64,000 nucleotides of DNA from Piscinibacter sp. HJYY11 (lineage in GTDB: Bacteria > Pseudomonadota > Gammaproteobacteria > Burkholderiales > Burkholderiaceae_C): NCBI RefSeq assembly GCF_016735515.1, contig NZ_JAERQZ010000001.1:2778746-2842745 (forward strand). The letters run 5' to 3'. The translations under genes and the position numbers were made by a program. Shown in pieces: positions 35,723 to 55,038 of this stretch; the stretch's first letter is position 1; each line of letters opens with the position of its first letter. Below the pieces are notes generated by a model. The model did no database searches. It saw nothing but the letters and a program-made list of their open reading frames with translations, and was not told the origin of the DNA.

Positions 35723-36223
35723 TCACTTGCCGGCGCGGCGGCGGCCGCCCGACACCTTGAGCAGCAGCTCCAGCAGCAGCAGCCGCTCGGCCGGCGAGAG
35801 CACCGACAGGGCGTCGTTTTCCATCGTCGCGGCGATCTTCTCGGCGCGCTGCACCAGCTGCTGGCCGGCCTTGGTGAGCACGACGATCTGCGAGCGGCGG
35901 TCTTCGGTGCTGCGCACCCGCTCGACCCAGCCGCGCTCCACCATGCGGTCGAGCGTGACAGCGAGGTTGGGCGGCGAGACATCGAGCGCCTGGCCGAGCT
36001 GCTTCTGGTTGACGTTCTCGTTCGAGGCGACGAGCACGAGGATGGAGAACTCCACCGCCTTCAGCTGCAGCGGCCCGAGGTGCTTGGCAAACACCTTCTT
36101 GAGCGCGACCGACGCGCGCGTGGCCGCATAGCCCATCAGGTGCGTGAGGCGCGACTGGTCGAGCGGCGCCGAACGGGCGCGCGGTTCCACGGTGTCGTCG
36201 GCGGCAAGCTCGGTGGCGTTCAT
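35723..36223 (-). CDS. MarR-family regulator of the aromatic-acid gene cluster
   Basis: This 166-residue protein has the MarR winged helix: LKAVEFSILVLVASNENVNQ, LGQALDVSPPNLAVTLDRMVERGWVER and the wing STEDRRSQIVVLTKAGQ. It is encoded last in the minus-strand operon, with an ATGA overlap to the acyl-CoA dehydrogenase gene. MarR proteins of hydroxycinnamate pathways (CouR, FerR, HcaR) are released by hydroxycinnamoyl-CoA esters; the same mode is likely here. A candidate site lies before the first gene of the cluster at 48810. Confidence 0.92.
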   Translation of the reverse strand: MNATELAADDTVEPRARSAPLDQSRLTHLMGYAATRASVALKKVFAKHLGPLQLKAVEFSILVLVASNENVNQKQLGQALDVSPPNLAVTLDRMVERGWVERVRSTEDRRSQIVVLTKAGQQLVQRAEKIAATMENDALSVLSPAERLLLLELLLKVSGGRRRAGK

Positions 36224-37962
36224 GGGGGCGGGGGGTGGAGCTGAGGCAGCGGATTTTGCCCTGCGCGGATGCGCGCCAGGCAGAGCCCGGCTTCGGGCAG
36301 CAGGTAGTCGAGGTAGTAGCGGGCTGTTTCGCGCTTGGCGGTGTGGAAGGGTGACGATGCGTGCGCGGCCACCGCCTCGGCGCGCACCCAGCCCTGGGCC
36401 AGCAGCACCAGGCCGGCCAGGCGCAGGTAGTCGTCGGCCACGCGGTAGGGCAGCTCGGGGTCGCCCTTGCACTGCTGCAGCAGCTGCTGCGTCGCCTGCT
36501 GCCAGTTGGCGAGCCAGGGGTGCACACGCTCGGCGAGCTCGGTGGCGGGGAGCTCCTGCTGCAGTCGGGTGATGAGTCCGCCGAGCTTCACGCCGCCATC
36601 GGCGACCACCTTGCGCACCAGCAGGTCGATCGCCTGGATCTCGTTGGTGCCCTCGTAGATGCGCGAGATGCGGCTGTCGCGTACGCATTGCTCGATGCCG
36701 TGGTCGTGGATGTAGCCATGGCCGCCGTAGACCTGCTGCGCCGCTTGCGCCGAGGCGAATGCGTTGTCGGTGAGGAAGGCCTTGCAGATCGGCGTGAGCA
36801 GCGAGACCTCGTCGTGCGCGACGTGGCGCACGCTTTCGTCCGGGTGACGCTCGGCGAGGTCGAGCAGGTGCGCAGTCTCGTAGGCCAGCACACGGCCGCC
36901 TTCGAGCAGCGCACGCTGGCGCAGGAGGTTGTGGCGCACGGCGGGGTGCAGCACGATCGAGTCGGCCTCGGCGTTCTGGCGTGTGGCCTCGCGCACCGGC
37001 GCGCGCATCTGCACACGCTCCTGTGCGTAGGCGAGCGCGTTCTGGTACGCACTCTCGGCGTGGCCGACGCCCTGCAGGCCGACGTGCAGCCGCGCCGCGT
37101 TCATCATCACGAACATGCCGGCGAGGCCGCGATTCGCTTCGCCCACCAGCCAGCCCGTCGCACCCTCGAAGTTCATCACGCAGGTGGCGCTGCCCTTGAT
37201 GCCCATCTTCTTCTCGAGGCCGTCGCAGCGCAGGGTGTTGCGCGTGCCGTCGGGCATCACCTTGGGCACGAGGAAGAGCGACAGTCCCTTGGTGCCGGCT
37301 GGCGCATCGGCGATGCGCGCCAGCACCATGTGCACGATGTTGTCGGTGAGGTCGTGCTCGCCGCCAGAGATGAAGATCTTGGTGCCGCTGAGGCGGAAGC
37401 TGCCGTCGGCCTGCGGCTCGGCGCGGGTCTTCAGCAGGCCCAGGTCGGAGCCCGCGTGCGCTTCGGTCAGGCACATGGTGGAAAGCCACTCGCCGCTCAC
37501 GACCTTGGGCAGGTACTGCGCGCGCAGCTCGGGCGTGGCGTGGGCCAACAGGCTCTCGTAGGCGCCGTGCAGCAGGCCCGGGTACATGTTCCACGCGTGG
37601 TTGGCCGAGTTGAGCATCTCGTGCAGCACGGCGTTGACCGACTGCGGCAGGCCCTGGCCGCCGACCTCAGGATCGCAGGCGAGCGCCGGCCAGCCGGCCT
37701 GCACGAAGGCTTGGTAGGCCTCGCGGAAGCCGTTCGGCGTGGTGACCTGGCCGTCTTTCAGCGTGCAGCCTTGCAGGTCACCCACGGCGTTGAGCGGCGC
37801 GATCACTTCGGAGGCGAACTTGCCCGCCTCTTCGATCACCTGGCGTGCGGTGTCGGCATCGACCTCGGCGAAGGACGGCATCTGCGCCCACTGCGCGGGC
37901 AGGTTCAGCAGCTCTTCGGTGACGAACTGGATGTCACGCAGAGGCGGGTGGTACTGCCACAT
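36220..37962 (-). CDS. Acyl-CoA dehydrogenase (long, DmdC/AidB-like type)
   Basis: This 580-residue flavoprotein has [18 protein letters not shown] and [19 protein letters not shown] (FAD/substrate loops) and the catalytic Glu region in [15 protein letters not shown]. It also has the C-terminal extension typical of the about 590-residue branch that includes 3-methylmercaptopropionyl-CoA dehydrogenase. In this operon it could desaturate saturated side chains, for example a dihydrohydroxycinnamoyl-CoA, before hydration. It starts 7 bases after the livF stop and overlaps the MarR gene. Confidence 0.92.
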
Positions 37963-37969
37963 GGCGAGG

Positions 37970-38710
37970 TCAGGCTTCTGCCTTCTTGCGTGCGGCGCCG
38001 AGGTAGGTGTCGATCACGCGCGGGTCCTTCGCGAGCTCGGCGGCGGGGCCGCTGAGCGCGATCTCGCCCATCTCCAGCACGTAGCCGTGGTCGGCCACTT
38101 CGAGTGCGGCGCGGGCGTTCTGCTCGACCAGAAGAATCGTCACACCGGTCGCGCGCAGGTCCGAGATGGTCTTGAACACCTCCTTGACGATCAGTGGCGC
38201 GAGGCCGAGCGACGGCTCGTCGAGCATCAGCAACTGCGGCTTGCTCATCAGCGCGCGGCCGACGGCGAGCATCTGGCGTTCGCCGCCCGAGAGCGTGCCG
38301 GCGAGCTGCTTGCGGCGCTCCTTGAGGCGTGGGAAGCGGGTGAAGACCTCTTCCATCGTCTCGCGCGCGGCCTTCGGGCCCTGGCGCACGTGGCGATAGG
38401 CACCGAGCAGGAGGTTGTCTTCGACCGGCATGGTGGAGAAGAGCGCACGCGTCTCGGGCACGAGGGCGATGCCCTGCATCACGCGCTCTTCGAGGCTGCG
38501 CTTGTCGATGGGCTTGCCGTCGTAGGCGATCTCGCCTTTCGAGGGCATCACGCCCATCAGCGCGTTGAGCAGGGTGCTCTTGCCGGCGCCGTTGGGGCCG
38601 ATCACCGTCACGACGCTGCCTTTTTGGGCCTCGAGGGTGAGGCCGTGGAGGACTTCGGCGTGGCCGTAGGCGGCGTGGAGGTTGCTGACCTTCAGCAAGG
38701 GGCTTGTCAT
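37970..38710 (-). CDS. livF: Branched-chain-type ABC ATPase LivF
   Basis: This 246-residue ATPase has Walker A GPNGAGKST, the LivF-specific VPETRALFSTMPVEDNLLLG, signature LSGGERQMLAVGRALM, Walker B LLMLDEPSLGLAP and VEQNARAAL. The start at ATG 38710 gives the standard N-terminus LLKVSNLHAAYGHAEVL. It is separated from livMG by a 684-base palindromic repeat region. It is the second ATPase of the importer. Confidence 0.95.
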   Translation of the reverse strand: MTSPLLKVSNLHAAYGHAEVLHGLTLEAQKGSVVTVIGPNGAGKSTLLNALMGVMPSKGEIAYDGKPIDKRSLEERVMQGIALVPETRALFSTMPVEDNLLLGAYRHVRQGPKAARETMEEVFTRFPRLKERRKQLAGTLSGGERQMLAVGRALMSKPQLLMLDEPSLGLAPLIVKEVFKTISDLRATGVTILLVEQNARAALEVADHGYVLEMGEIALSGPAAELAKDPRVIDTYLGAARKKAEA

Positions 38711-39394
38711 GGGATGTCCTGTTTCACTGCGTGGGCCGCATGCCGGGTCTCGGCCCGGCGGCCGAGTTACTTTCTTTGCTTCGCCAAAGAAAGTAACCAA
38801 AGAAAGGCGACCCGACGGTGGCGGTCCGGCCTGCGGCCGGACTGCTCTGCGGTGCTCGGTCTTGAGGGGCCGCGCCTAACTCACTTCGCGGCCTTTGGCC
38901 GCTACGTTCAGACAAGAGGCGCGAAGTCAGTTCACGAAGCGCGCTGGCGCGCGCGCCCCTCAAGCCCTGCGCTCCTCGACGCCACCCACGGGAAGCGATT
39001 CGGCTCGCTTCGCATCGCCACCCGCACGGGTGCGCGCATAGCGCGCCCCGCATCCAGCACGAGGCGAAGCGAGTCGAGAGTACGAGGCCAGCGAAGCTGG
39101 CGAGGGTATCCCGGGGCCCTTGAGAGCCGTCGAGCAGCGCAGGGCTTGGGGTGGCGCGCGCAGCGCGCTTCGTGAACTGACTTCGCGCAGCTGTTTGAGC
39201 GCAGCGCCGCAGGCGCGTAGCGAGTTCTGCGCGACACCCCAAGCCCGAGCAGCGCAGAGAAGTCGCCCCTAGGGCGACCGGCGAACGGGGTGCCTTTTCT
39301 TTTGGTTCCTTTTCTTTGGGCAAGCAAAGAAAAGGGACTGCGCCGCCGGGCGCACATCCCGGCGCAGCCTCGCGCAGTGAACAGAACCCCACGA
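38711..39394. repeat. Intergenic palindromic repeat element of about 570 bases between livF and livMG
   Basis: This 684-base gap holds no plausible gene. It is bounded by two hairpins: TTACTTTCTTTG/CAAAGAAAGTAA (38767-38796, perfect 12-base arms) and CCTTTTCTTTG/CAAAGAAAAGG (39308-39335, perfect 11-base arms). Inside, a roughly 60-base inverted pair spans about 38921-38981 and 39129-39188 (both contain GAAGTCAGTTCACGAAGCGC or its complement), and CTTGAGGGG/CCCCTCAAG adds a nested dyad (about 38863-38965). No transposase is present. Similar T3CT3G palindromes are recurrent between genes in Burkholderiales, so this looks like a non-coding repeat family. Confidence 0.75.
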
Positions 39395-41161
39395 TCAATG
39401 CTCCGTGCCCAGGTACGCAGCACGCACCGCCGGAGAAGCCTGCACTTCAGCCGGCGTCCCCTCCATCAGCTTCGTCCCAAATTCCATCACCACGATCCGA
39501 TCCGTGACCTGCATCACCAGATCCATGTCGTGCTCGACCAGCAGGATCGACAACCCTTCCGAGCGAAGCTGCCGCAGCACCTCCACCAGCGCCTGCTTCT
39601 CCTTGTGCCGCAAGCCGGCGGCAGGCTCATCCAGCAACAGCAACGCCGGATCCGCGCACAAGGCCCGCGCAATCTCCATCAAGCGCTGCGGCCCCATCGC
39701 CAGATTGCCCGCCTGCTCATGCAGGTACTGCTCCATCCCGATGCGCTTCAACTGCCGCTCCGCCTCACGCAGCAGCGAACGCTCCTCGGCCCGATCGAGC
39801 CGCAGCATCGCCGACGCCACGCCACGCGAGCCGCGCAGGTGGGCGCCCAGCGCCACGTTCTCCAGCACCGTCATCGTCGGGATCATCTTCACGTGCTGGA
39901 ACGTGCGGCAGAGGCCGCGCTTCGCGATGTCGCGCGAGGCCATGCCGTCGATGCGCTGGCCGCGGAAGGTGACCGCGCCGCTCGTGGCCGGCAACACGCC
40001 CGTCACGAGGTTGAAGGTCGTCGACTTGCCCGCGCCGTTGGGCCCGATCAGGCCGACGATCTCGCCCGCACGCACCTGGAAGCTCACGTCGTTGACCGCC
40101 ACCAGCCCGCCGAACTGCTTGCGCACCGCCTGCACATCGAGCACCAGCTCGCCCTGCGGCGGCTTGCTTTGCTCGGCGAGCGGCGCGGCGTCGTGCCAGT
40201 CGACCTTGCGCTTGACCGGGGGCAACCAGCCTTCGATGAAGGCCCACACGCCATCGCGCGCGTAGTGCAGCACCAGCACCAGCGCGATGCCGAACACGAT
40301 CACCTCGTAGTTGCCGCTGCTGCCCATCAGCTTGGGCAGCCACACCTGCAACTGCTCTTCCAGGATCTTCACGATGCCGGCGCCGACGATGGCGCCCCAC
40401 ACATGGCCCACGCCGCCGAGCACCGCCATGAAGAGGTACTCGATGCCCTTGTTGAGGCCGAAGGGCGAGGGGTTCACCGTGCGCTGGAAGTGCGCAAAGA
40501 GCCAGCCCGAAACGGCCGCGAACAGCGCCGCAATCACGAAGGCCATCACCTTGGTCTGAAAGGTGTTCACGCCCATGGCCTCGGCCATCGTCGTGCCGCC
40601 CTTCACCGCGCGCAGCGCCCGGCCCACGCGCGAGTCGAGCAAATGCAGCGTGGCAAACGAGGCCAGCACCACGATCACCCACAAGAGGTAGTAGAAGCTG
40701 CGGCCCGACCTCAGCTCGGTGCCGAAGAAGTTGATCGCCGGCAGGCCCAACAGGCCGTCGTACTTGCCGAGCGCGTCGATGTTGCCGAGCGTGTAGTACA
40801 GGCTCAGGCCCCAGGCGATGGTGGCCAGCGGCAGGTAGTGGCCCGACATGCGCAGCGTGACCCACGCGAGCACGAGCGCGAAGACTGCCGTGATCACGAG
40901 GCCGATCCACACCGTGACCCACGGCGAGAAGCCGTGCACGGTGGTGAGGTAGGCGGTGGTGTACGCGCCCATGCCGACGAAGGCCGCCTGGCCGAAAGAC
41001 GTGAGCCCGGCCACGCCGGTGAGCAGCACCAGGCCGAGGGCGACCAGCGCATAGAGGCCGATGTAGTTGGCCTGCGTGATCCAGAACTCGGGCACCGGCA
41101 GCAGCGGCAGCACCGCCACGGCCAGCACGAAGACGATGAGGGAGATGCGACGGATGTTCAT
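39395..41161 (-). CDS. LivM permease fused to LivG ATPase
   Basis: This 588-residue protein is a natural fusion. Residues about 1-335 form the LivM permease (GLYALVALGLVLLTGVAGLTSFGQAAF, GGTTMAEAMGVN). Residues about 345-588 form the LivG ATPase, with Walker A GPNGAGKST, LCRTFQHVKMIPTMTV and Walker B LLLLDEPAAGLRHKE. The usual LSGGQ signature is degenerate here (NLAMGPQRLMEIARAL), as in many LivG proteins. The frame is continuous, so it is not a sequencing error. ATG 41161 is the first credible start. It forms an importer with LivF, LivH and the binding protein. Confidence 0.93.
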   Translation of the reverse strand: MNIRRISLIVFVLAVAVLPLLPVPEFWITQANYIGLYALVALGLVLLTGVAGLTSFGQAAFVGMGAYTTAYLTTVHGFSPWVTVWIGLVITAVFALVLAWVTLRMSGHYLPLATIAWGLSLYYTLGNIDALGKYDGLLGLPAINFFGTELRSGRSFYYLLWVIVVLASFATLHLLDSRVGRALRAVKGGTTMAEAMGVNTFQTKVMAFVIAALFAAVSGWLFAHFQRTVNPSPFGLNKGIEYLFMAVLGGVGHVWGAIVGAGIVKILEEQLQVWLPKLMGSSGNYEVIVFGIALVLVLHYARDGVWAFIEGWLPPVKRKVDWHDAAPLAEQSKPPQGELVLDVQAVRKQFGGLVAVNDVSFQVRAGEIVGLIGPNGAGKSTTFNLVTGVLPATSGAVTFRGQRIDGMASRDIAKRGLCRTFQHVKMIPTMTVLENVALGAHLRGSRGVASAMLRLDRAEERSLLREAERQLKRIGMEQYLHEQAGNLAMGPQRLMEIARALCADPALLLLDEPAAGLRHKEKQALVEVLRQLRSEGLSILLVEHDMDLVMQVTDRIVVMEFGTKLMEGTPAEVQASPAVRAAYLGTEH

Positions 41162-41203
41162 GTTGTTGTCCAGTGTTCCCCGCCGGGCCGCCCCAAGGGG
41201 AAC

Positions 41204-41242
41204 GGCGCCCCTCGGGGGCAGGAGCAAAGCGACTGGGGGGCT
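41204..41242 (-). repeat. GC-rich repeat copy 1 just downstream of livH
   Basis: The sequence reads GGCGCCCCTCGGGGGCAGGA, then GCAAAGCGACTGGGGGGCT. It differs at only a few bases from the copy at 42407-42446. Each copy begins just beyond the stop codon of the upstream minus-strand gene. Both contain a CCCC/GGGG stem. The position suggests a transcript-end or mRNA-processing structure. Confidence 0.7.
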
Positions 41243-41246
41243 CTCA

Positions 41247-42317
41247 TCACTCTTCGTCGTCGTGGCCGTGGAGGAAGGATCTCCAGAGCAGCACGGGGAT
41301 GATCACGGTGAAGACGATCACCTCCTTGAAGGCGCTGGCCCAGAAGGAGCCAAAACTCTCGAGCACGCCGACGAAGATGGCGCCCAGCGCCGCGGCCGGG
41401 TAGCTCGCCAGCCCGCCGAAGATGGCGGCGACGAAGCCTTTCAGGCCGATGAGGAAGCCGGAGTCGTAGAAGATGGTCGCGGTGGGCCCGATGAGAAGGC
41501 CCGACAGCGCCCCCATGAAGGCGGCGAGGCCGAGGGTCAGGCGGCCGGCGCCCGAGGTCGAGATGCCCATCAGCCGCGCGCCGAGCCGGTTGACCGCCGT
41601 GGCGCGCAAGGCCTTGCCGCGCAGCGTGAGCTCGAAGAAGACGAACAGCGCCGACATCAGCGTGATCGTCGCCACGAAGATGATGAAGGCCTGGCCCGAG
41701 ACCGTGACCGGGCCGAGCTGGAAACGTTCGTCCCAGAAGCTCGGGTTGCGGAAACCTTCGGCACCGAAGAACACGAGGCCGAGACCGGTGAGCGCGAAGT
41801 GCACGCCGACCGAGACGATGAGCAGCACCAGCACGCTCGCGTCGGCCAGCGGCTCGTACGCGAGGCGGTACACCAGCGGGCCGAGCGGCGTGACCACCGC
41901 CAGCGTGAAGAGGCTCTGCGCCCACAGCGGCCAGCTCCGCGGCCCCGCAAACCAGGCCACCGCAAACACGAGGACCGGCACCGCGAGCGTGAGCAGCGCT
42001 TCCTTCGCGAGCACCCCGGAGCCGAGCCCGCGGCGCATGCCGCGCACACCGTCGACGACCGCCGCGATCACCGCCACCGCGAGCAGCAGCCACACCGTAC
42101 CCGGCAGGTCGCCATGGCGGTGCCAGAAGCTGCCGACCGGGTTGCCGTTCTGCAGGATGGCCAGCGTGATCGCGCCATAGGCGACGAAATCACCCTGCCC
42201 GATGAAGATGATGCGCGTGATGGCAAACACCAGCACGGTGGCCAGGGCCAGCAGCGCGTAGATGGCGCCATTGGTGACGCCGTCCAGCGTGAGGATGCTG
42301 GCGATAGAGAAGTCCAT
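41247..42317 (-). CDS. livH: LivH-type branched-chain ABC permease
   Basis: This 356-residue inner-membrane protein has the LivH start (LDGVTNGAIYALLALATVLVF and FIGQGDFVAYGA), the coupling segment ELTLRGKALRATAVNRLGAR, and KGFVAAIFGGLASYPAAALG. It is about 50 residues longer than classical LivH because of an extra hydrophobic stretch at about 55-115. It pairs with the LivM-LivG fusion. Substrates of such systems in this order include aromatic acids as well as amino acids. Confidence 0.93.
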   Translation of the reverse strand: MDFSIASILTLDGVTNGAIYALLALATVLVFAITRIIFIGQGDFVAYGAITLAILQNGNPVGSFWHRHGDLPGTVWLLLAVAVIAAVVDGVRGMRRGLGSGVLAKEALLTLAVPVLVFAVAWFAGPRSWPLWAQSLFTLAVVTPLGPLVYRLAYEPLADASVLVLLIVSVGVHFALTGLGLVFFGAEGFRNPSFWDERFQLGPVTVSGQAFIIFVATITLMSALFVFFELTLRGKALRATAVNRLGARLMGISTSGAGRLTLGLAAFMGALSGLLIGPTATIFYDSGFLIGLKGFVAAIFGGLASYPAAALGAIFVGVLESFGSFWASAFKEVIVFTVIIPVLLWRSFLHGHDDEE

Positions 42318-42406
42318 GTTCGATCGACACCAATAAATTGGCCGAGCGAAGCAAGGCCAAGATCAAGCAACGCCCGGGGGAACCGGCTTGGCCGGGCCCC
42401 TCGGGT

Positions 42407-42446: not shown

Positions 42447-42448
42447 GA

Positions 42449-43588: not shown

Positions 43589-43625
43589 GTGTCTTGTCTC
43601 CAGTGATGAAAGGGAACGTCGCGGG

Positions 43626-44045
43626 TCAACTGCAAAGGGCTTGGATGTCTTCAGGCACGGGGATCGCCCTGAGGCGCTCGCGGTCGTGGTCGTCGCGCTT
43701 GACGAAGGCGCGCACCTCGCGGCCTTCGCAGATCAGCTCGTCGCCACGCAGCACGCGGTGCACCTGGGTGAAGGCCACGCGGCGCCACTCTTCGATGTGC
43801 GTGTGCACGGTCAGCGTGTCGCCGTAGGTCGCGGTCTTGAGGAACTTGGTGTTGATCTCCAGCAGCGGCGTTCCCACGATGCCGCGCTCGTTTTCCAGGA
43901 CGCGCCAGGGCTTCACGCCGCACTGCATGAAGAAGGTCAGCGAAGCCGCGTCCATCCAGCGGCAGAAATTTGGGAAGAACACGATGCCCCCGGGATCGCA
44001 GTCGCCGAACTGCACGGTCACGGTGTAGGTGGTGCTGCGGGGCAT
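43626..44045 (-). CDS. 4-hydroxybenzoyl-CoA-type thioesterase (hotdog fold)
   Basis: This 139-residue protein has the YbgC/4HBT pattern VQFGDCDPGGIVFFPNFCRW, whose Asp acts in catalysis, followed by TAMQ-like hotdog strands. Members hydrolyse 4-hydroxybenzoyl-CoA and short acyl-CoAs. In this cluster it would release the benzoate (for example vanillate) from the CoA ester left by the thiolase. It lies between livK and the SDR gene. Confidence 0.88.
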   Translation of the reverse strand: MPRSTTYTVTVQFGDCDPGGIVFFPNFCRWMDAASLTFFMQCGVKPWRVLENERGIVGTPLLEINTKFLKTATYGDTLTVHTHIEEWRRVAFTQVHRVLRGDELICEGREVRAFVKRDDHDRERLRAIPVPEDIQALCS

Positions 44046-44061
44046 GTGTGGTCGTTTCAGT

Positions 44062-44826: not shown

Positions 44827-44857
44827 GGTGGGTGTGTGAGTTGAACGTATGGGCCGA

Positions 44858-46108
<1,251 letters not shown>

Positions 46109-46129
46109 GGTGTGTTCCTTGAAAGTGGT

Positions 46130-47974: not shown

Positions 47975-48780
47975 GACTTCACCACCTTCCCCGCACGCTT
48001 TTCGAGGAAGGCGCGCAGGCGCTCTTTCGCATCGGGCGTGGACTCGGCCACCGCCGCCATCAGCGACTCGGTGAAGAGGCCTTCCGACTGTGACTGGTCG
48101 GCGATGCGCGGCAGCGCGTGCGTGACGGCGTAGTTGGACAGCGGCGCGTTCTGCGCGATGCGCTGCGCCAGTTCATACGCCTTGGCGAAACCTTCGCCTT
48201 GCGGCACCACGTACTGCACGAGGCCGGCGGCCAGGCCTTCCTGCGCGTCGTAGACGCGGCCGGTCAACATCATGTCGGCCATGCGCGCCACGCCCATCAG
48301 CCGTGGGATGCGCGCCGAGCCGCCACCGCCGACAAAGAGGCCACGCTGGCCTTCGGGCAGGCCGAAATACGCCGAGGCCTCAGCCACACGGATGTGCGTC
48401 GCCGAGGCCAGCTCCAAGCCACCGCCGACCACCGCGCCGTGCAGCACCGCGACCACCGGCACACGGCCGAACTGCACCTGGTCGAAGGCGGCATGCCACA
48501 TGCGCGAGTGCAGCACGCCCTCGCCCACGTCGCGCTCCACCAGCTCCGACAGATCAAGCCCGGCGCAGAAGTGATCGCCCTCACCGCTGACGATGGCCAC
48601 GCGCACGTCGTCGGGCAGGTTGACGACGGCGGTGTGGAGTTGCTGAATCAGCGTGTCGGAGATGGCGTTGCGCTTGGCCGGGCGGTTGAGGCGGAGGTGC
48701 AGCACCGGGCCGGCCTGGCTGACCTGCAGCAGGTCGAGCGAGGCCAGGAGGCCGGTGACGGGGCGGAAATCTGTGCTCAT
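47971..48780 (-). CDS. Enoyl-CoA hydratase/isomerase family protein
   Basis: This 269-residue crotonase-fold protein has the oxyanion-loop motifs HFCAGLDLSEL and AVVGGGLELASATH. The two catalytic Glu are expected in GGGLELA and in FGLPEGQRGLFVGGGG; both are present. ATG 48780 is chosen over an earlier start. It is the first gene of the minus-strand operon. It could be a plain hydratase feeding the dehydrogenase and thiolase, or a hydratase-lyase that makes vanillin; the thiolase next door favours the former. Confidence 0.9.
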   Translation of the reverse strand: MSTDFRPVTGLLASLDLLQVSQAGPVLHLRLNRPAKRNAISDTLIQQLHTAVVNLPDDVRVAIVSGEGDHFCAGLDLSELVERDVGEGVLHSRMWHAAFDQVQFGRVPVVAVLHGAVVGGGLELASATHIRVAEASAYFGLPEGQRGLFVGGGGSARIPRLMGVARMADMMLTGRVYDAQEGLAAGLVQYVVPQGEGFAKAYELAQRIAQNAPLSNYAVTHALPRIADQSQSEGLFTESLMAAVAESTPDAKERLRAFLEKRAGKVVKS

Positions 48781-48809
48781 GCGCGGGCTGGTGGCAGTCG
48801 CCAACAATT

Positions 48810-48828
48810 TAGTTAAAAGACAAAACTA
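48810..48828. promoter_or_regulatory. Candidate MarR-type operator upstream of the hydratase gene
   Basis: TAGTT and AACTA form an inverted pair with a 9-base AT-rich spacer (48815-48823), inside an AT-rich island of an otherwise GC-rich gap. It lies 30 bases before the hydratase start codon. The size suits a MarR dimer, and a marR gene ends the operon. Confidence 0.45.
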
Positions 48829-48894
48829 CTTTTCGCTGCTGCCATCTTAGGAGCCGCACCCCGGCCGCGCAAGTTTCAGCTATGGGAATCACCC

Positions 48895-48936
48895 TGGTAT
48901 TTACCCTAGGATCGGGTCCTACATAGTTCAATACCA
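48895..48936. promoter_or_regulatory. Nested palindromes in the divergent promoter
   Basis: An outer pair TGGTATT/AATACCA (48895-48901 and 48930-48936) encloses TAGGA-TCGGG-TCCTA (48907-48921). The centres nearly coincide. The region lies 45-86 bases before the CoA-transferase start, where a regulator would act on the divergent genes. Confidence 0.5.
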
Positions 48937-48980
48937 TAAACATTTACGCACCCACCCTCCCCACTTGAGGACGACCGCCC

Positions 48981-50555
48981 ATGAGCAAACTGATAGACGC
49001 GAAGGCCGCCGCCGGCCTGATCCCCGACGGCGCCACGGTATGGCTGGGCGGCCTGGCGATGATGGGGTTCGCCGAAGAGATCGCGAAGGCGATCGAGGCG
49101 CGTTACCTGGAGAGTGGCCACCCGAAGAACCTGACCACCTGGGCCTCGGGCGCGATCGGCAACGCGAAGGACGGCGGCATGGTGCACTTCGCCCACCCCG
49201 GCCTGCTGAAACGCATGATCGCGGGCCATTACGGCCAGTGCGGCGCGAATCTCATGAAGATGGTGATGGCCGGCGAGATCGAGGCATACAACTTCCCGCA
49301 GGGCTCGCTGGCCAACCTGCCCAAGCACATCGCGGCGCGTACGCCGGGCCTCTTGACCAAGGTGGGCCTGGGCACCTTCGTCGACCCGCGCATCGAGGGC
49401 GGCAAGATGAACAGCGCGACGACGCAAAGCCTCAACGAGGTGGTGCAGTTCGCCGGTGAAGAGTGGCTCTTCTACCCGTCGCCCAAGGTCGACGTGGCGC
49501 TGATCCGCGCGACGCTCGCCGACGAGAAGGGCAACCTCTCGATGGACAAGGAAGGCGTGCTGCTCGAGACCCTCTCGGTCGCGCAGGCGGTGAAGGCCAA
49601 CGGTGGCATCGTGATCGCGCAGGTCGAGCGCATCGTGAAGGCCGGCTCGCTGCACCCGAAGTCGGTGAAGGTGCCGGGTCTGGTCGTCGACCATGTGGTG
49701 ATCGGCAAACCCGAGAACCACATGCAGACCATCAGCACGCAGTACAACCCGGCGCTGGCCGGTGACATCCGCGTGCCGGTGAGTGCCATGAAGCCGATGC
49801 CGCTCGATGCGCGCAAGGTGATCGCCCGCCGCGCCGCGGCCGAACTGATCGAAGGCGCGGTGGTCAACCTCGGCATCGGCGTGCCCGCCGGTGTGCCCGC
49901 CGTGGCCCACGAAGAAGGCCTGGGCGATGCCTTCGAGCTCAGCGTGGAGTCTGGCGTCAACGGCGGCGTGCCGCAGATGGGCGGCGACTTCGCGCTCTCG
50001 CTCAACGCCGAGTCGATCATCGAGCAGCCGCTGCAGTTCAACTTCTACGACGGCGGCGGCATCGACGTGAGCTGCCTCGGCCTCGCGCAGGCCGATGCCA
50101 GCGGCAACGTCAACGTCAGCAAGTTCAGCGGCCGGCCGGTCGGTTGCGGCGGCTTCATCAACATCACGCAGAGCGCGAAGAAGCTGGTCTTCTGCGGCAC
50201 CTTCACCGCCGATGGCCTGGAACTTGAGATCGGCGGCGGGCTGCTCAAGGTGACGAAAGAAGGCGCGCACCGCAAGTTCATCAAGCAGGTGGAGCAGATC
50301 ACCTTCAGCGGCTCCGGCTCGGTGCAGCGCCAGCAGACGGTGCTCTTCATCACCGAACGCGCGGTGTTCCACCTCACGGCCGAGGGCCTGGAGCTGACCG
50401 AGGTCGCCCCCGGCATCGACCTCGAGCGCGACGTGCTCGCGCACATGGACTTCAAGCCCGTGATGAAGAACGTGCGCCCGATGGACCCGGGCATCTTCCA
50501 GGAGACATGGGGCGGCCTGGCAGAGGCGATGCGGCATGCCAGGCCGCTGAGCTGA
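48981..50555 (+). CDS. Fused acyl-CoA:acetate/3-oxoacid CoA-transferase
   Basis: This 524-residue protein joins the alpha and beta CoA-transferase domains (YdiF/propionate CoA-transferase type). The N-terminal half has GGLAMMGFAEEI. The C-terminal half has GIGVPAGVPAVAHEE and the catalytic Glu in LSVESGVNGGVPQ. GAGG lies 9 bases before ATG 48981. It is divergent from the beta-oxidation operon and may move CoA from acetyl-CoA or another acyl donor to the imported acid. The acceptor is unknown. Confidence 0.93.
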   Translation: MSKLIDAKAAAGLIPDGATVWLGGLAMMGFAEEIAKAIEARYLESGHPKNLTTWASGAIGNAKDGGMVHFAHPGLLKRMIAGHYGQCGANLMKMVMAGEIEAYNFPQGSLANLPKHIAARTPGLLTKVGLGTFVDPRIEGGKMNSATTQSLNEVVQFAGEEWLFYPSPKVDVALIRATLADEKGNLSMDKEGVLLETLSVAQAVKANGGIVIAQVERIVKAGSLHPKSVKVPGLVVDHVVIGKPENHMQTISTQYNPALAGDIRVPVSAMKPMPLDARKVIARRAAAELIEGAVVNLGIGVPAGVPAVAHEEGLGDAFELSVESGVNGGVPQMGGDFALSLNAESIIEQPLQFNFYDGGGIDVSCLGLAQADASGNVNVSKFSGRPVGCGGFINITQSAKKLVFCGTFTADGLELEIGGGLLKVTKEGAHRKFIKQVEQITFSGSGSVQRQQTVLFITERAVFHLTAEGLELTEVAPGIDLERDVLAHMDFKPVMKNVRPMDPGIFQETWGGLAEAMRHARPLS

Positions 50556-50564
50556 CGGGCGCGC

Positions 50565-52997
50565 TCAGTGGTGGTGCCGGCGCGGCCGGGCCTGGTCGGG
50601 CCGGCTGTAGTCGCACACCCCCTCGGGGAAGATCTGCTGCAGCTTGGCCACCGCCGCCGCGTTGGGCATCCATGGGGCATAGGTGCCATCGGCCACTGCC
50701 TTCATGACCGGCTTGAGCGCGCACTGGTAGATGCCGCCTTCGATCGGCGCGCCGGCCACGGTGCGTGAGGTGCCGTAGATCGGGAAACGCTGCGTGCACG
50801 GGCCGGGCGGCAGCGAGTCGAGGATGCCGTTCCAAGCGTCATCGCCCGCGTAGATGAGCTGGCCATGCACGTCGAAGCAGCTGTCGACCGCCCGCGCGGG
50901 CCGGTTGCGGGCGATGCCCTTCTTCGGGTTGGCGCGGATGTTGGCCATCCACTCGTCCATCACCGCGATGGCCTCCATCGACTGGCTCGCCTTGGGCTGG
51001 CCGGGCATCGTGTCGGTGAACCAGATCACCAGGTGGTCGGCACGGCCCATCTTCTCCAGCACGCGCTTTCGCACCGCGAACGACTGGTGCGAGTTGTGCA
51101 TGTCGAGCTCACGCTCCATGTACTGGCGGTGGTCGATGGTGGGCAGCGTGAGCTCGCCGTCGAACACATGGCCCGAGGTGTAGGCGGCGCGGGTGGCGAT
51201 CGGGTCGCCCTTGGTGCGCGGCGCCGGCTGGTCGGACGCGGGGCTCAGGTTCATGTTGCGGCGGCTCCAGGGGTCGAAGTAGCCGGGTTCGGTCAGCGCC
51301 CGGTTGATCTCGGCCTGCGAGGTGCCGAAGAAGGGGAAGCCTTCCTGCACCATGTCGCTCGGGTGCTTCCAGCCGCCGATCTTGAAATTGAGGTCGAGGA
51401 ACTCGTCGGGCGTGATCCGGCCTTCCTTCATCGAGCGCAGGCCGTACTGCACGCCCACGTTGTCCCAGGTCGGGCGTGCTGCACCGGTGGCGTCGACACC
51501 ATAGACGTTGCGCAGGTCGTCGTAGTGCGTCCAGCGGATGGCGGCGATGGCGCTCTGCGGCTCGTAGAGCTGCTGGTTGGGCGCCTGCCCGTACCAGGGG
51601 TTCATCGCCAGCGGCGTGAGCCCGCGCCAGGCCGGCACGCACTCGGTGGTTCCCGGTGCGGTGCTGTAGCCGAGCGCGGTCTTGAGCGGCGCCAGCGCAT
51701 CGTTGACACGCGCGAAGCCTTCCTCGGCGTTGAAGCCGACGAGCCAGCTGCGGTTCTTGGTGACGCGCCACTTCGGGTTGGCACGGTCGGTGGCGTCCAT
51801 GTAGTGCTCGAGCAGCTCGCAGTCGCCGACGTGGATGGTCTGCGTGACCATGTCGGGGTACGACTGCACCGGCAGCGCGGCATCGAGGATGCCCGGCTGG
51901 TTCTGCTGGAGGATGTACTGCTGGATCGCGCCGCCCGAGCCGCCCAGGCCGTAGGTGTAGAGCGGCATGCCGTAACGTTCGACGAAGCGCTCCTTGGTCA
52001 TCATCGCGGTCTCGGCGGCGAGCTGCAGGTTGTAGTGCGTGCCGGTGTTGTTGCCGCTCGAATGCACGATGGCCGTGCCGGTGCGCAGGATGTCGGCGTT
52101 CATCGCGCCGCCATGCAGCGTGCCTTGCGTGTGGCCGACCGCCACGCCGCCCTGGAACCAGTACTGTAGGCGCTTGTTCCACAGGCTCAGGTCGGGCGAG
52201 GCCGGGTTCTCGCCGCGCGGCGCCAGCATCGCGAAGCTGTACAGGAAGCGGTTGATGCTGCCGCGCTCCTGGCGCACGATGAAGTCGACCTCGCGGCCGT
52301 CGGCGAGCGTGGTCTTGGCCATGTCGGCGGGGGTGGAGCCGTCGGCGGGCAGCGGCCGCCATTGGTTCGTGGTGCTGCGGTACCAGTGGGTGACGAAGGT
52401 CTCGATCGAGCAGGTCTTGCTGTAGCCGATTCGCGCGCCGCTGGCGTCGAACACCGGGAAGCCCGGGGGCGTGGCCGACTCGACCAGCGGCTGGCGGCCC
52501 ACCGCGCCTTGCGTGGTGGTGCAGACGAAAGGCTCCTGCTGCGGGCCCGAGAAGATGGGGCCGGTGATGGGGTAATTCGTCAGCACCAGGCGGTCGCGCA
52601 GCAGGAAGCCGAGGTGCTTGTGCCGCACTTCCAGCACGTTGCGGCCTTCGACCAGGCCGGTGATCACGCCTTCCAGGCCGTCGGCGGTGGGTGAGAGCAC
52701 GCCGGTCACGAGCCGGCCGTTGAGGCGCAGCTCCAGCTTGTCGCGCAGGCCCGGCGGCACGCGCACCGCGATGCGTGCGTCGCCGCCCGACACGTACTGC
52801 GGCGGGCTGGAGAGCACGCTGAGCTCGACCGCACCGTGGCGGCCCCCTCGCTCGCCATCGCCTTGCGCGTTCGATCCCGCGGCAAGCGCCGTCTCGCGGT
52901 CACCGGCATCGCTGCCGCCAGCATCACTGCCGCCACCACATGCGGCCAGCAGCCACACGCTGGCCGCCACGACCGCCTGAACCTTCCAGGTCTTCAT
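50565..52997 (-). CDS. DUF6351-family lipoprotein
   Basis: This 810-residue protein has a lipoprotein signal with lipobox LLAACGGG, then a Gly/Asp/Ser-rich linker and an N-terminal beta region (LSVLSSPPQYVSGGDARI). The main part has an alpha/beta-hydrolase-like nucleophile elbow, GLGGSGGAIQQYILQ near residue 350, and GTHYNLQLAAETAMM. I place it in DUF6351 from these and its length; no function is established. It is convergent with the CoA-transferase gene (9 bases between) and divergent from the tannase gene, suggesting a role in breaking down a polymer or ester outside the cell. Confidence 0.82.
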   Translation of the reverse strand: MKTWKVQAVVAASVWLLAACGGGSDAGGSDAGDRETALAAGSNAQGDGERGGRHGAVELSVLSSPPQYVSGGDARIAVRVPPGLRDKLELRLNGRLVTGVLSPTADGLEGVITGLVEGRNVLEVRHKHLGFLLRDRLVLTNYPITGPIFSGPQQEPFVCTTTQGAVGRQPLVESATPPGFPVFDASGARIGYSKTCSIETFVTHWYRSTTNQWRPLPADGSTPADMAKTTLADGREVDFIVRQERGSINRFLYSFAMLAPRGENPASPDLSLWNKRLQYWFQGGVAVGHTQGTLHGGAMNADILRTGTAIVHSSGNNTGTHYNLQLAAETAMMTKERFVERYGMPLYTYGLGGSGGAIQQYILQQNQPGILDAALPVQSYPDMVTQTIHVGDCELLEHYMDATDRANPKWRVTKNRSWLVGFNAEEGFARVNDALAPLKTALGYSTAPGTTECVPAWRGLTPLAMNPWYGQAPNQQLYEPQSAIAAIRWTHYDDLRNVYGVDATGAARPTWDNVGVQYGLRSMKEGRITPDEFLDLNFKIGGWKHPSDMVQEGFPFFGTSQAEINRALTEPGYFDPWSRRNMNLSPASDQPAPRTKGDPIATRAAYTSGHVFDGELTLPTIDHRQYMERELDMHNSHQSFAVRKRVLEKMGRADHLVIWFTDTMPGQPKASQSMEAIAVMDEWMANIRANPKKGIARNRPARAVDSCFDVHGQLIYAGDDAWNGILDSLPPGPCTQRFPIYGTSRTVAGAPIEGGIYQCALKPVMKAVADGTYAPWMPNAAAVAKLQQIFPEGVCDYSRPDQARPRRHHH

Positions 52998-53334
52998 GGT
53001 GCTGTCTCCTTTGGCCCGGTCGGGGCCTTGTGGGTTGTTCGACCTTTGAACTTAGCGGCGCGGAAGAAGACCGCCTACCGGTTTTACGCGGGGTGCCCGA
53101 AAGCACTGTCGGGCCATAAGCAATCCGGCGGCGCGCATCAAAAACGTCCGCTGTGCGCGCAGGCTTCCTGGTGATCGCCCAGCGCTGCAACGACTGCGGG
53201 ATTGCCCGCAAACCACCTGGCATTCAATTACTTAAATTCAATAAGCAATTCGGCGAGCGCCGCTGGCGCCGGACTGCACGCCTAGGGACTTTCGAGCCGC
53301 CTCACCGAACGGCCACAGCCAGGAGACAACCCAC
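52998..53334. promoter_or_regulatory. Divergent promoter region between DUF6351 and tannase genes
   Basis: This 337-base gap drives both lipoprotein genes. It holds the hairpin GCCCGA/TCGGGC (about 53094-53113) and an AT-rich part with two direct ATTCAAT copies (53222-53228 and 53236-53242, 14-base period) that may hold a promoter or a regulator site. AGGAG stands about 8 bases before the tannase start. No open frame in it looks real. Confidence 0.5.
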
Positions 53335-55038
53335 ATGCACGCAACACGACGTTCACCGGCCGCGCTGGCGGCCACCACCCTGCTCGCCGCCCTCGCCGCT
53401 TGCGGCGGCAACGACGACGACAACACAGGCCCGCCGCGCCTCGCCGCGGCCACACCGGCCACGCTGTCGGGCAATTGCGCCGACCTGGCCGCGCGACTGA
53501 CCACGCTCGCCAACACCACCATCACCGCCACCACCGACGTGGCGGCCGGCACGCTCATGGTGGCCGGCCAGCCGGTCGCGCAGCACTGCCACGTGACAGG
53601 CTCGATGTACCCGCGCACCGGCATCGATGGCAACGCCTACGCCATCGGCTTCGAGATGCGCCTGCCGAACAACTGGAACGGCCGCTTCTTCTACCAGGCC
53701 AACGGCGGCATCGACGGCAGCGTCGTCACCGCCACCGGCGCGGTGAACGGCGGCGCGGGCCTCACGAACGCGCTGCACATGGGCTTTGCCGTGATCAGCT
53801 CCGACGCCGGCCACAGCGGCGCGCTGGGCCCCAACTTCGGCATCGACCCGCAGGCCCGCCTCGACTACGGCTACCAGGCGGTGCAGAAGCTCACGCCCAT
53901 GGCCAAGAGCCTGATCCAGACGGCCTACGGCAAGCAGCCCGACCGCTCGTACATCGGCGGCTGCTCCAACGGCGGGCGCCACACCATGGTGGCGATGAGC
54001 CGCTTCGCCGACCAGTACGACGGCTATCTTGCCGGCGCCCCGGGCTACAACCTGCCCAAGGCCGCCATCGCCAACATCTTCGGCGCCCAGCGCTACGCGC
54101 TGATCGACTCGGCCAACCTCGCCAATGCCTTCACCGCCGCCGAGCGCACCACCGTCGCCAACGCGGTGCTCGCCCGGTGCGACGCGCTCGACGGCGCCAC
54201 CGACGGCCTGGTGCAGGACGTGGAGGCCTGCCGCAGCGCCTTCAACCTGGCGACCGACGTGCCCACCTGCCCCGGCGCGCGCGACGGCAGCTGCCTCACC
54301 ACCTCGCAGAAGGTCGCCATCGCGCCGACTTTCAGCGGCGCCACCACCAGCACCGGCCGCTCGTTCTACGCGAGCTTCCCCTACGACCCGGGCATCGCGA
54401 GTGGCGGCATCCCGTTCTGGGAGTTCACCGCCCCGGTGCTGCTCGACACCGGCGGCGTCGCCCAGATCTGGAAGGTGCCGCCCGAGCCCGTGGCCGGCTT
54501 CAACGGCCCGGCCTTCGCGCTCAACCTCAACATCGACCTGGCGCTGCAGTGGATCGAAACCACGAACGCGACCTACACCGAATCGGCGATGAGCTTCATG
54601 ACGCCGCCCAACCCGACGCAGCTCGGGACGCTGAAGAACCGCGGCGCCAAGGTCATGGTCTACCACGGCGTGGCCGACCCGATCTTCTCGGTCGACGACA
54701 CCAAGGCCTGGTACGACGGCCTGCGTGCCAACAACGGCGGCGATGCCAGCAGCTTCGCGAAGTTCTACCGCGTGCCCGGCATGGCGCACTGCTCGGGCGG
54801 CCCGGCCACCGACCAATTCGACATGCTGACACCGCTGGTCGCCTGGGTGGAGCAAGGCATCGAGCCGCAGGCCGTGACGGCCACCGCGCGCGGCACCGGC
54901 AACGCCGCCGGCACCAACCTCGAAGTGCCCACCGCCTGGGGTGCCGCACGCACGCGGCCGCTGTGCCCCTACCCGAAGGTGGCGCGCTACAACGGCACGG
55001 GCGACGTGAACCTGGCGGCGAGCTTCAGCTGCCAGTAG
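53335..55038 (+). CDS. Tannase/feruloyl-esterase family lipoprotein
   Basis: This 567-residue protein has a lipoprotein signal (ATTLLAALAACGG, Cys at the lipobox). It has the family's CS-D-HC triad: Cys210-Ser211 in GGCSNGGRH, Asp448 in GVADPIFS, and His485-Cys486 in MAHCSGG. In this family the two Cys next to Ser and His form a disulfide that supports the triad. It should sit in an outer-membrane or periplasmic position and cut phenolic esters such as feruloyl or galloyl esters. A divergent DUF6351 gene and the aromatic-acid operon lie next to it. Confidence 0.92.
   Translation: MHATRRSPAALAATTLLAALAACGGNDDDNTGPPRLAAATPATLSGNCADLAARLTTLANTTITATTDVAAGTLMVAGQPVAQHCHVTGSMYPRTGIDGNAYAIGFEMRLPNNWNGRFFYQANGGIDGSVVTATGAVNGGAGLTNALHMGFAVISSDAGHSGALGPNFGIDPQARLDYGYQAVQKLTPMAKSLIQTAYGKQPDRSYIGGCSNGGRHTMVAMSRFADQYDGYLAGAPGYNLPKAAIANIFGAQRYALIDSANLANAFTAAERTTVANAVLARCDALDGATDGLVQDVEACRSAFNLATDVPTCPGARDGSCLTTSQKVAIAPTFSGATTSTGRSFYASFPYDPGIASGGIPFWEFTAPVLLDTGGVAQIWKVPPEPVAGFNGPAFALNLNIDLALQWIETTNATYTESAMSFMTPPNPTQLGTLKNRGAKVMVYHGVADPIFSVDDTKAWYDGLRANNGGDASSFAKFYRVPGMAHCSGGPATDQFDMLTPLVAWVEQGIEPQAVTATARGTGNAAGTNLEVPTAWGAARTRPLCPYPKVARYNGTGDVNLAASFSCQ

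Follow-up and report, generated by a model that had tools for sequence, protein, structure and literature searches.

The gene cluster analysed here raises the question of which acids it handles and how their side chains would be cleaved. It lies at 35723-55038, from the end of a MarR gene to the stop codon of a tannase gene, within the window – the whole 64,000-nt stretch of DNA that we analysed (Piscinibacter sp. HJYY11, contig NZ_JAERQZ010000001.1, positions 2,778,746-2,842,745). The host is a soil-type bacterium.

Organization of the cluster

An earlier note had listed a set of catabolic, transport and esterase genes side by side, and Pfam and NCBIfam profile matches placed all of them at coordinates that fit (Table 1). 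A minus-strand operon with genes for MarR, acyl-CoA dehydrogenase, LivF, a LivM-LivG fusion, LivH, LivK, a 4HBT thioesterase, SDR, thiolase, ligase and hydratase faces genes for a CoA-transferase, a DUF6351 lipoprotein and a tannase-family lipoprotein. Much of this gene order is repeated across many genomes, so the arrangement is not due to chance. The ligase, hydratase, SDR and thiolase genes follow one another directly, no more than 21 bp apart. By family and by relatives, the cluster contains the predicted beta-oxidative set of ligase, hydratase, 3-hydroxyacyl-CoA dehydrogenase and beta-ketoacyl-CoA-cleaving enzyme.

Table 1. Features of the cluster, in window coordinates
Feature	Coordinates	Strand	Evidence
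MarR-family regulator	35723..36223	-	PF01047 55 bits; overlaps acyl-CoA dehydrogenase gene by 4 bp
Acyl-CoA dehydrogenase	36220..37962	-	PF00441/PF12806 (PF12806, C-terminal domain)
LivF/CouS-like ATPase	37970..38800	-	PF00005; best NCBIfam LivF
LivM-LivG fused permease-ATPase	39395..41227	-	PF02653 and PF00005 in one frame
LivH-type permease	41247..42317	-	PF02653
LivK, CouP-like binding protein	42449..43588	-	PF13458
4HBT, 4-hydroxybenzoyl-CoA-type thioesterase	43626..44045	-	PF13279
SDR, probable 3-hydroxyacyl-CoA dehydrogenase	44062..44880	-	PF00106
Beta-ketothiolase	44858..46108	-	PF00108/PF02803; TIGR01930 355.5 bits, above cut-off
Feruloyl-CoA-synthase-like CoA ligase	46130..47974	-	PF00501; NF009232 715.7 bits, below cut-off 777
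Crotonase-family hydratase, CouA-like	47971..48807	-	PF00378; NF006013/PRK08150 410.6 bits, cut-off 232
Operator-like palindrome TAGTT-N9-AACTA, 10/10	48810..48828		pattern match
Second operator-like site, 8/10, before CoA-transferase gene	48924..48942		pattern match
YdiF-like CoA-transferase	48981..50555	+	PF01144; 421 bits to YdiF 2ahu
DUF6351 lipoprotein	50565..52997	-	PF19878 658 bits; lipobox
Weak operator-like site, 8/10, between DUF6351 and tannase genes	53035..53053		pattern match
Tannase/feruloyl-esterase family lipoprotein	53335..55038	+	PF07519 432 bits; lipobox

We consider it likely (probability about 0.75) that this MarR-controlled cluster serves the uptake and beta-oxidative, thiolytic degradation of 4-hydroxycinnamates (p-coumarate, caffeate and ferulate), and probably of their dihydro forms as well. 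We infer the reactions, the substrates, the place of the esterases and the regulation from the observed gene content, gene order, families, pocket residues, recurrence and replacement pattern.

A CouPSTU-type importer

The importer had been described as LivKHMGF; its genes are present, but they number four rather than five, with the second permease fused to one of the ATPases. The likely true start of LivF is at 38710 (ATG at residue 31). Among solved structures, LivK matched 3tx6, 4f8j and 4fb4 at 350 bits and 4jb0 at 349 bits (51.9% identity over the 4jb0 segment). It keeps all five residues that bind the 4-OH and the carboxylate of the ligand in Rhodopseudomonas palustris CouP (T102, R197, S222, Q305 and H309), as expected of a CouPSTU-type importer, and the accompanying permease, fused permease-ATPase and ATPase are all in the window. 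The five residues are kept in 42 of 45 ligase-bearing loci versus two of nine without a detected ligase, though one of these nine (L152) carries an annotated feruloyl-CoA synthase. LivK is a close relative of CouP and most likely a hydroxycinnamate-binding protein. The linkage to an importer had been put forward as new, but it is not: R. palustris couAB is described as clustering with CouPSTU, including a fused permease-ATPase (RPA1792, CouT; PMC3223731) and a MarR regulator (PMC3610893, PMC3223731).

Predicted beta-oxidative enzymes

Ligase relatives at 43-51% identity occur on plasmids, and several are named feruloyl-CoA synthase. The hydratase matched PDB 3hin at 327 bits and holds both Glu positions of classic hydratases, which we take to be functional residues; the hydratases of R. 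palustris-like loci hold them too. For the SDR, the best NCBIfam models shown were FabG-like and all under cut-off. It is 56% identical to the '3-hydroxy-2-methylbutyryl-CoA dehydrogenase' of a ferulate cluster in Rhizobium sp. Q54 – which by annotated names also encodes feruloyl-CoA synthase, hydratase, MarR and '4-hydroxyphenyl-beta-ketoacyl-CoA hydrolase' – and is a probable 3-hydroxyacyl-CoA dehydrogenase. The thiolase shows motifs that we take to be catalytic. The best solved relative of the thioesterase is 1bvq, a 4-hydroxybenzoyl-CoA thioesterase (141.5 bits, full length); 1lo9, which shares its name and length, scored 139 bits and the next other sequence 58 bits. The acyl-CoA dehydrogenase is 37% identical to that of a Rhizobium hydroxycinnamate cluster and, by analogy with Pcd of Pseudomonas fluorescens (PMC12642758), likely admits saturated (dihydro) substrates.

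Consistent with the proposal of a CoA-dependent, beta-oxidative route from hydroxycinnamate to hydroxybenzoate, the LivK pocket residues, the SDR type, the 4-hydroxybenzoyl-CoA-type thioesterase and the thiolase all point to such a thiolytic pathway. The tannase-family lipoprotein, possibly together with the DUF6351 lipoprotein, would free acids from esters outside the cytoplasm, and the CouPSTU-type ABC importer would take them in. The ligase would spend ATP to form the CoA ester, the acyl-CoA dehydrogenase would desaturate dihydro-substrates, the hydratase would add water and the SDR would oxidize the 3-hydroxyacyl-CoA. The thiolase would then split the 3-ketoacyl-CoA into acetyl-CoA and hydroxybenzoyl-CoA, from which the thioesterase, possibly with the CoA-transferase, would release 4-hydroxybenzoate or vanillate. 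A VanA relative is encoded elsewhere in the genome.

Possible replacement of the last step

The new element is a thiolase with CoA-releasing enzymes in place of a CouO-like amidohydrolase, a pattern resting on about two phylogenetically independent comparisons. In most relatives a CouO-like amidohydrolase gene diverges from the hydratase gene, and in most of those examined this enzyme probably performs the last step. The window has the CoA-transferase gene in that slot, its thiolase and thioesterase genes lie inside the operon, and a search of its genome for the amidohydrolase that ends the CouO-type pathway gave no match at E 1e-10. Of the 92 ligase loci, 66 have the amidohydrolase (63 without and 3 with the thiolase), 13 have the thiolase alone and 13 have neither. 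A CoA-transferase or 4HBT gene accompanies the thiolase in 16/16 loci versus 12/76 others, a CoA-transferase gene in 9/16 versus 0/76, and a detected SDR in 13/16 versus 34/76 (leaving 3/16 and 42/76 without one). With kinship counted, the exclusion between thiolase and amidohydrolase was not significant (five independent pairs, of which about two were informative; median p 0.5), and neither was the tie between thiolase and CoA-releasing genes.

Four loci (L066, L071, L075 and L085) carry thiolase, CoA-transferase, hydratase, ligase, SDR, VanA and VanB genes nearly end to end, a series that points to conversion of ferulate to vanillate. Three of the 16 thiolase loci (L066, L071 and L085) have an aldehyde dehydrogenase gene close to the cluster, versus one of the 76 others, which argues against a clean split of two routes. 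The locus allows non-homologous replacement of the C-C-cleaving step in hydroxycinnamate breakdown – amidohydrolase hydrolysis versus thiolysis and CoA release – to be tested in a single slot of a cluster that otherwise recurs. For the conversion of lignin and plant waste, a pathway that avoids free vanillin would be useful.

Since the product of thiolysis is still a CoA ester, CoA might be moved from hydroxybenzoyl-CoA (or acetyl-CoA) onto incoming hydroxycinnamate by the YdiF-like CoA-transferase, with the ATP-using ligase mainly priming the cycle. Taken jointly with at least two replacements of the amidohydrolase by thiolase and CoA release in one slot within Burkholderiales, and with a tannase-family lipoprotein supplying acids cut from plant esters, this ATP-sparing scheme is speculative, and we would not expect all of its parts to hold.

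Relation to known systems

The cou genes of Rhodococcus jostii RHA1 were reportedly the subject of Otani 2014. R. palustris cou had been offered as a beta-oxidative precedent. Its cluster shares with the window a CouP-like protein with the same five residues, permease, fusion, ATPase, MarR, ligase and hydratase, but its route is described as probably not beta-oxidation, and the cluster descriptions in these sources name no thiolase or esterase (PMC3610893, PMC3223731); CouBA reportedly converts ferulate into vanillin-derived products (PMC10612212). Better parallels are found in Agrobacterium fabrum (PMC7797058) and R. jostii RHA1 (PMC4737184). The A. fabrum region SpG8-1b has a feruloyl-CoA synthase, hydratase, 3-hydroxyacyl-CoA dehydrogenase and MarR repressor HcaR, and a last enzyme named 'beta-keto-thiolase' (Atu1421), which may be a true thiolase or an amidohydrolase; the description covers six enzymes and two regulators, with no importer or esterase among them (PMC7797058). 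The RHA1 pathway shares CoA ligation, beta-oxidative deacetylation and a MarR repressor sensing a CoA ester, but ends in the amidohydrolase CouO rather than in thiolase and thioesterase or CoA-transferase (PMC4737184); the window would thus encode a thiolytic variant of this known deacetylation pathway. The P. fluorescens SBW25 phenylpropanoid methyl ester pathway likewise joins an esterase, an acyl-CoA dehydrogenase (Pcd) and a thiolase to a hydroxycinnamate operon, but its esterase Pme is a different serine hydrolase and its operon has a hydratase/lyase and vanillin dehydrogenase (PMC12642758). The linkage of an esterase to phenylpropanoid catabolic genes, also put forward as new, has in Pme a precedent from another family.

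Esterase candidates

The lipoprotein signal suggests a surface location for the tannase-family and DUF6351 proteins. The tannase matches the PF07519 profile over its full length, catalytic residues included. Its nearest solved structure is MHETase 8ekg (348 bits), with the catalytic Ser, Asp and His aligned; Arg411, Phe415 and Ser416 of MHETase are not conserved in this alignment.

The DUF6351 model is of moderate quality (mean pLDDT 68.8), and its best Foldseek matches, with E about 1e-6, are MHETase and feruloyl esterases, but the TM-scores span 0.16-0.37; the protein is possibly an alpha/beta-hydrolase akin to these. Linkage to such clusters was found only in the window and in a single close relative. 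A search of 299 other genomes of the order at E 1e-100 gave DUF6351 in one genome, where no enzyme of this cluster is encoded nearby, and none accompany it on a Variovorax plasmid. The gene does stand beside the cluster, as had been claimed, but because it is so sporadic elsewhere we assign it to the module only tentatively.

Alternative readings

Both lipoproteins could act on some other ester and be mere neighbours, which we regard as doubtful for the pair though the least improbable of the alternatives. CoA-transferase and DUF6351 genes separate hydratase from tannase in the window, the genome encodes four further tannases outside the cluster, and 78 of the 92 ligase loci have no tannase match in the stretch examined. 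The site at 53035 is weak (equalled in 3.7% of shuffles of that gap), and in L006 neither the tannase gene nor the DUF6351 gene is preceded by a site scoring at least 8. Against this, a tannase-family gene is linked in 13 of the 92 ligase loci, and in 11 of these 13 it adjoins the hydratase or MarR gene or sits within the operon; five (L008, L014, L020, L028 and L031) have it divergent from the hydratase, followed by the amidohydrolase gene; and the operator pattern precedes 7/14 tannase genes versus 0.4 in the shuffled control. These patterns tie tannase-family lipoproteins to the hydroxycinnamate cluster.

For the core pathway, the main competitor is retro-aldol cleavage of the CouA/Ech kind, in which a hydratase-lyase would give vanillin or 4-hydroxybenzaldehyde and acetyl-CoA, a general aldehyde dehydrogenase encoded elsewhere would make the acid, and thiolase, SDR and thioesterase would act on other acids or on saturated side chains. 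L135-L138, loci arranged as in R. palustris, encode hydratases with 58-60% identity to that of the window, and R. palustris CouA is reported to be aldehyde-forming (PMC10612212), so the hydratase by itself would be compatible with an aldehyde route too. SDR and thiolase are missing from many related loci, and the rest of the genome has nine aldehyde dehydrogenase matches at E 1e-60 (best 38% to the single query used). In P. fluorescens, deletion of the ech-operon thiolase affected growth only to a limited extent, but transposon mutants were less fit on phloretate and on its methyl ester (PMC12642758). We nevertheless judge this route unlikely here: dehydrogenase, thiolase and aroyl-CoA-type thioesterase share an operon, the amidohydrolase beside the hydratase in relatives is of the beta-ketoacyl-CoA hydrolase kind, and knock-down of rpa1786 in R. 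palustris reportedly reduced growth on p-coumarate little or not at all (PMC12366328). A Pfam profile search of the cluster also found no aldehyde dehydrogenase gene, which upholds the claim that it lacks the vanillin dehydrogenase of the Fcs-Ech-Vdh pathway. Service to another acid – for example 4-hydroxyphenylpyruvate, a non-aromatic acid or a cinnamic acid that lacks the 4-OH – is very unlikely given the conserved CouP ligand residues and the presence of VanA in 13/92 and PobA in 16/92 ligase neighbourhoods, even though LivK also matches 3sg0 and 4dqd, binding proteins whose ligands we take to differ from those of CouP, at about 300 bits. CouP has itself been found with bound 4-hydroxyphenylpyruvate (PMC3610893).

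Regulation

The MarR-family regulator is a probable repressor of the cluster, with a role that may resemble that of CouR or HcaR. Two operator-like sites in the 173-bp divergent gap were matched in a fraction of 0.0004 of 5000 shuffles. The pattern precedes the CoA-transferase gene in 2/10 cases only, the window and L006. At 8/10 or better, TAGTT-N9-AACTA precedes the hydratase gene in 63 of 83 regions, and related genomes can be searched for the regulon with this palindrome.

Organization of the cluster and the loci compared

The cluster lies in a 5.62 Mb genome of two contigs (G000), of which the window covers G000:C1:2778746-2842745. Eleven minus-strand genes probably form one operon, in the order hydratase, feruloyl-CoA-synthase-like ligase, thiolase, SDR, 4HBT thioesterase, LivK, LivH, fused LivM-LivG, LivF, acyl-CoA dehydrogenase, and MarR. 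Intergenic gaps are short, save for 131 bp preceding LivH and 594 bp preceding LivF. Opposite the operon are genes for a CoA-transferase, a DUF6351 protein, and a tannase-family protein, the latter two encoding a lipobox. A gap within the operon that we examined for a MarR gene contained none; the MarR gene is at the operon end instead. Between LivF and LivM-LivG, in that gap, lies an imperfect palindrome of ~600 bp with 72% self-complementarity across 560 columns; the genome has four full copies, including the window's, that are 87-100% identical.

Among the matches listed, the closest ligase relative is in a Rhizobacter MAG (locus L006, 78%), followed by other Burkholderiales, though records from the genome itself were possibly excluded. 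We compared 92 ligase loci: the best 80 of 527 confirmed candidates from one scan with the window's ligase, plus 12 others from 20 regions picked among 33 genomes with a LivK match. Contig ends shorten some of these loci, and 69 extend for 3 kb in each direction.

Features of the window, with related features elsewhere (window positions unless a contig or locus is named)
Feature	Position	Strand	Remark
Operon, hydratase through MarR	48807 to 35723	-	eleven genes
Gap examined for a MarR gene	38801-39394
Imperfect palindrome	38723-39394
Full copies of the palindrome	G000:C1:330719, 1790268, 2817546; C2:42389		window's copy included
CoA-transferase (YdiF-like)	48981-50555	+
DUF6351 protein		-
Tannase-family protein		+
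Operator-like site	48810		TAGTTAAAAGACAAAACTA; hydratase/CoA-transferase gap
Operator-like site	48924		hydratase/CoA-transferase gap
Operator-like site	53035
Methyl-accepting chemotaxis protein	55398-56942		after the tannase
Other tannase-family genes	G000:C1:3453565, 2493132, 1761007, 916339		29-32% identical to the window's
Annotated type I-C CRISPR-Cas genes	L165:10954-14873		Rhizobium sp. Q54 plasmid, adjoining its ferulate cluster

Importer and side-chain enzymes

The window LivK scored 350 bits against 3tx6, 4f8j, and 4fb4, and 349 bits against 4jb0, which we take to be CouP. Ligand residue numbers published for CouP match the correct letters of the 4jb0 chain at one constant offset. According to PMC3610893, His309 and Gln305 of Rhodopseudomonas palustris CouP contact the 4-hydroxyl group of the ligand, and Arg197, Ser222, and Thr102 contact its carboxylate. 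The window LivK retains all five residues, as do 42 of the 45 fetched loci with a ligase versus two of nine without a detected ligase – though one of these nine, the Terrarubrum plasmid cluster L152, carries an annotated ligase outside the coverage of our table. This conservation, in the window and in the ligase loci, points to 4-hydroxycinnamates as the predicted LivK ligands.

The 4HBT thioesterase is nearest to the 4-hydroxybenzoyl-CoA thioesterase 1bvq (141 bits over the full length; the next other sequence scored 58 bits), an enzyme type that makes sense if the pathway product is a hydroxybenzoyl-CoA. The SDR is 56% identical to one from Rhizobium sp. Q54, which is encoded in a cluster with a feruloyl-CoA synthase, a hydratase, a MarR protein, an acyl-CoA dehydrogenase, and a ‘4-hydroxyphenyl-beta-ketoacyl-CoA hydrolase’. 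Both glutamates of the classic hydratases are present in the window hydratase, as they are in relatives from R. palustris-like loci, and CouA of R. palustris serves vanillin production (PMC10612212). The hydratase by itself thus leaves the route unsettled, and the argument for a thiolytic route rests on the genes behind it. A VanA relative is encoded ~50 kb before the window in the same genome.

Five loci outside the window's class (L135-L138 and L149; genomes of 6-8 Mb) encode PobA, hydratase, ligase, SDR, a CouP-like protein, and mostly 4HBT, with neither thiolase nor amidohydrolase within the stretch examined.

Most related loci encode an amidohydrolase, and few of these also a thiolase

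We first saw an amidohydrolase gene beside the hydratase in L152, and a search with the L152 protein identified relatives in 66 of the 92 ligase loci. In 52 of the 62 loci having both genes, the amidohydrolase is adjacent to and divergent from the hydratase. The protein belongs to PF04909, matched no NCBIfam model at E 1e-8, and has a Rhizobium relative (77%) named 4-hydroxyphenyl-beta-ketoacyl-CoA hydrolase. In Rhodococcus jostii RHA1 the final step is carried out by the amidohydrolase CouO (PMC4737184 and PMC9618137), and we infer that the amidohydrolases of related loci are CouO orthologues.

Thiolase and amidohydrolase seldom share a locus: three of the 92 loci encode both, 13 thiolase only, 63 amidohydrolase only, and 13 neither (for the 69 loci extending 3 kb each way, the counts are 3, 13, 46, and 7). 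The window is an additional thiolase-only case. The amidohydrolase is absent at E 1e-10 from the whole of the window's genome and from eight of ten other genomes reached through thiolase-only Burkholderiales loci, several of which are MAGs with completeness not given. The two exceptions are G671, with a 34% match containing a stop, and the Rhizobacter genome G675, with two amidohydrolase copies and a second ligase locus. Conversely, a window-like thiolase (E 1e-80) was present in two of 17 other genomes picked for their amidohydrolase loci, one of them G675. One ligase locus of G675 (L075) encodes thiolase, CoA-transferase, and VanAB, and the other (L050) the amidohydrolase, making this genome a natural side-by-side test of the two pathway versions. 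The three loci with both enzymes (L131, L133, and L134) belong to the window's own family and are possible intermediates of the swap.

Genes for CoA release accompany the thiolase. A CoA-transferase or 4HBT gene is present in 16 of 16 thiolase-bearing loci – L011 being counted by a second thiolase type only – versus 12 of 76 others, and the CoA-transferase specifically in 9/16 versus 0/76. In L066, L071, L075, and L085, genes for thiolase, CoA-transferase, hydratase, ligase, SDR, VanA, and VanB lie in a row with gaps below 50 bp; L066, L071, and L075 come from Pelomonas or Rhizobacter strains. In the window and in L006, L007, L011, L018, and L083, the CoA-transferase gene points away from the hydratase in the usual amidohydrolase slot; the latter four loci carry a second thiolase-family gene between the two. 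Several counts make the picture less tidy: 3/16 thiolase loci have a gene for an aldehyde dehydrogenase nearby versus 1/76 others, PobA is encoded in 0/16 versus 16/76, and seven of the 16 lack a 4HBT match and three an SDR match. Outside the window's class, L139 and L140 combine thiolase and 4HBT with no SDR match.

Plain Fisher tests on such counts take no account of shared ancestry. As a kinship control, we used a ligase tree built quickly under LG+G4, in which L141 drew a long-branch warning. The thiolase state changes six times on this tree and the amidohydrolase state five; the window is one of eight thiolase-bearing members of one set, and a second set consists of L011, L018, and L083. 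The tree gave five independent pairs, of which about two are informative; all agree with expectation (amidohydrolase opposite to thiolase, CoA release with it), and the median p was 0.5 for each. The pattern is thus clean but rests on few events. Because the amidohydrolase is commoner, the thiolase probably took its place, on a tree that does not separate gain from loss.

The window cluster probably encodes a thiolytic version of an established pathway. Further points of comparison are Corynebacterium phd and the studies Otani 2014 and Campillo 2014. The amidohydrolase final step was already known in RHA1, as was the link of importer and regulator in R. palustris, where RPA1792 is a fused permease-ATPase like that of the window importer (PMC3223731). 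A beta-oxidative route was known in Gram-negatives from Agrobacterium fabrum (PMC7797058), and the coupling of an esterase and an acyl-CoA dehydrogenase with a hydroxycinnamate operon was known in a different form (PMC12642758). Within titles and abstract starts of the open-licence literature, we found no description of a thiolase with thioesterase or CoA-transferase replacing the amidohydrolase.

The tannase is linked to such clusters, with DUF6351 unsupported as a regular member

The earlier note had joined both surface lipoproteins to the catabolic genes as an esterase module, a link that is real for the tannase. Thirteen of the 92 ligase loci encode a tannase relative of full or almost full length (45-87% identical), counting a two-piece copy in L006 and excluding a 66-aa fragment in L063. 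Eleven of the 13 adjoin the hydratase gene (L008, L014, L020, L028, and L031; divergent, 287-311 bp) or a MarR gene (L015, L019, L039, L041, and L045), or sit within the operon (L134); the exceptions are L006 and L011. The tannase is not tied to the thiolase (3/16 thiolase loci versus 11/76 others, L063 fragment included). MHETase activity is not favoured, because the residues at positions we take to be Arg411, Phe415, and Ser416 of MHETase differ. A putative ester-feeding front end of the pathway is believable. The genome encodes four more tannase-family proteins, and the chemotaxis gene after the tannase, a neighbour kept in L006 (79%), might encode a sensor of the released acids.

The protein database contains many DUF6351 proteins (2839 matches among 7995 candidates scored; the best 120 are 69-93% identical, with names including Steroidobacter and Variovorax), but in the window's order DUF6351 is sporadic, occurring in one of 299 other genomes (E 1e-100). 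The 20 kb around that copy contained no gene of the window's cluster, save weak ABC-ATPase matches, leaving DUF6351 unsupported as a regular member. A model of moderate quality gave MHETase and feruloyl esterases as top Foldseek matches, with low TM-scores; a likeness to PD-1 in a PDB sequence search (best E 0.042) is due to chance.

An operator-like palindrome precedes the hydratase gene

A TAGTT-N9-AACTA pattern (at least 8/10 positions) precedes the hydratase gene in 63 of 83 regions, compared with 3.9 in shuffled sequence (2.7 with shorter regions); the count includes the window's own match, which is not independent since the pattern was derived from it. Among spacers of 5 to 13, nine was best by far. 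The pattern is rare before LivK (1/55), MarR (1/59), SDR (0/46), and VanA (0/13), and was found before 7/14 tannase (control 0.4), 4/14 thiolase (control 0.5), and 2/10 CoA-transferase genes. In the same literature search, we found no description of a tannase gene at a CouR-type operator. Shuffled windows average 1.5 sites and contain at most 4, so only the divergent-gap pair is secure among the window's three. We infer that the cluster's MarR protein binds this palindrome.
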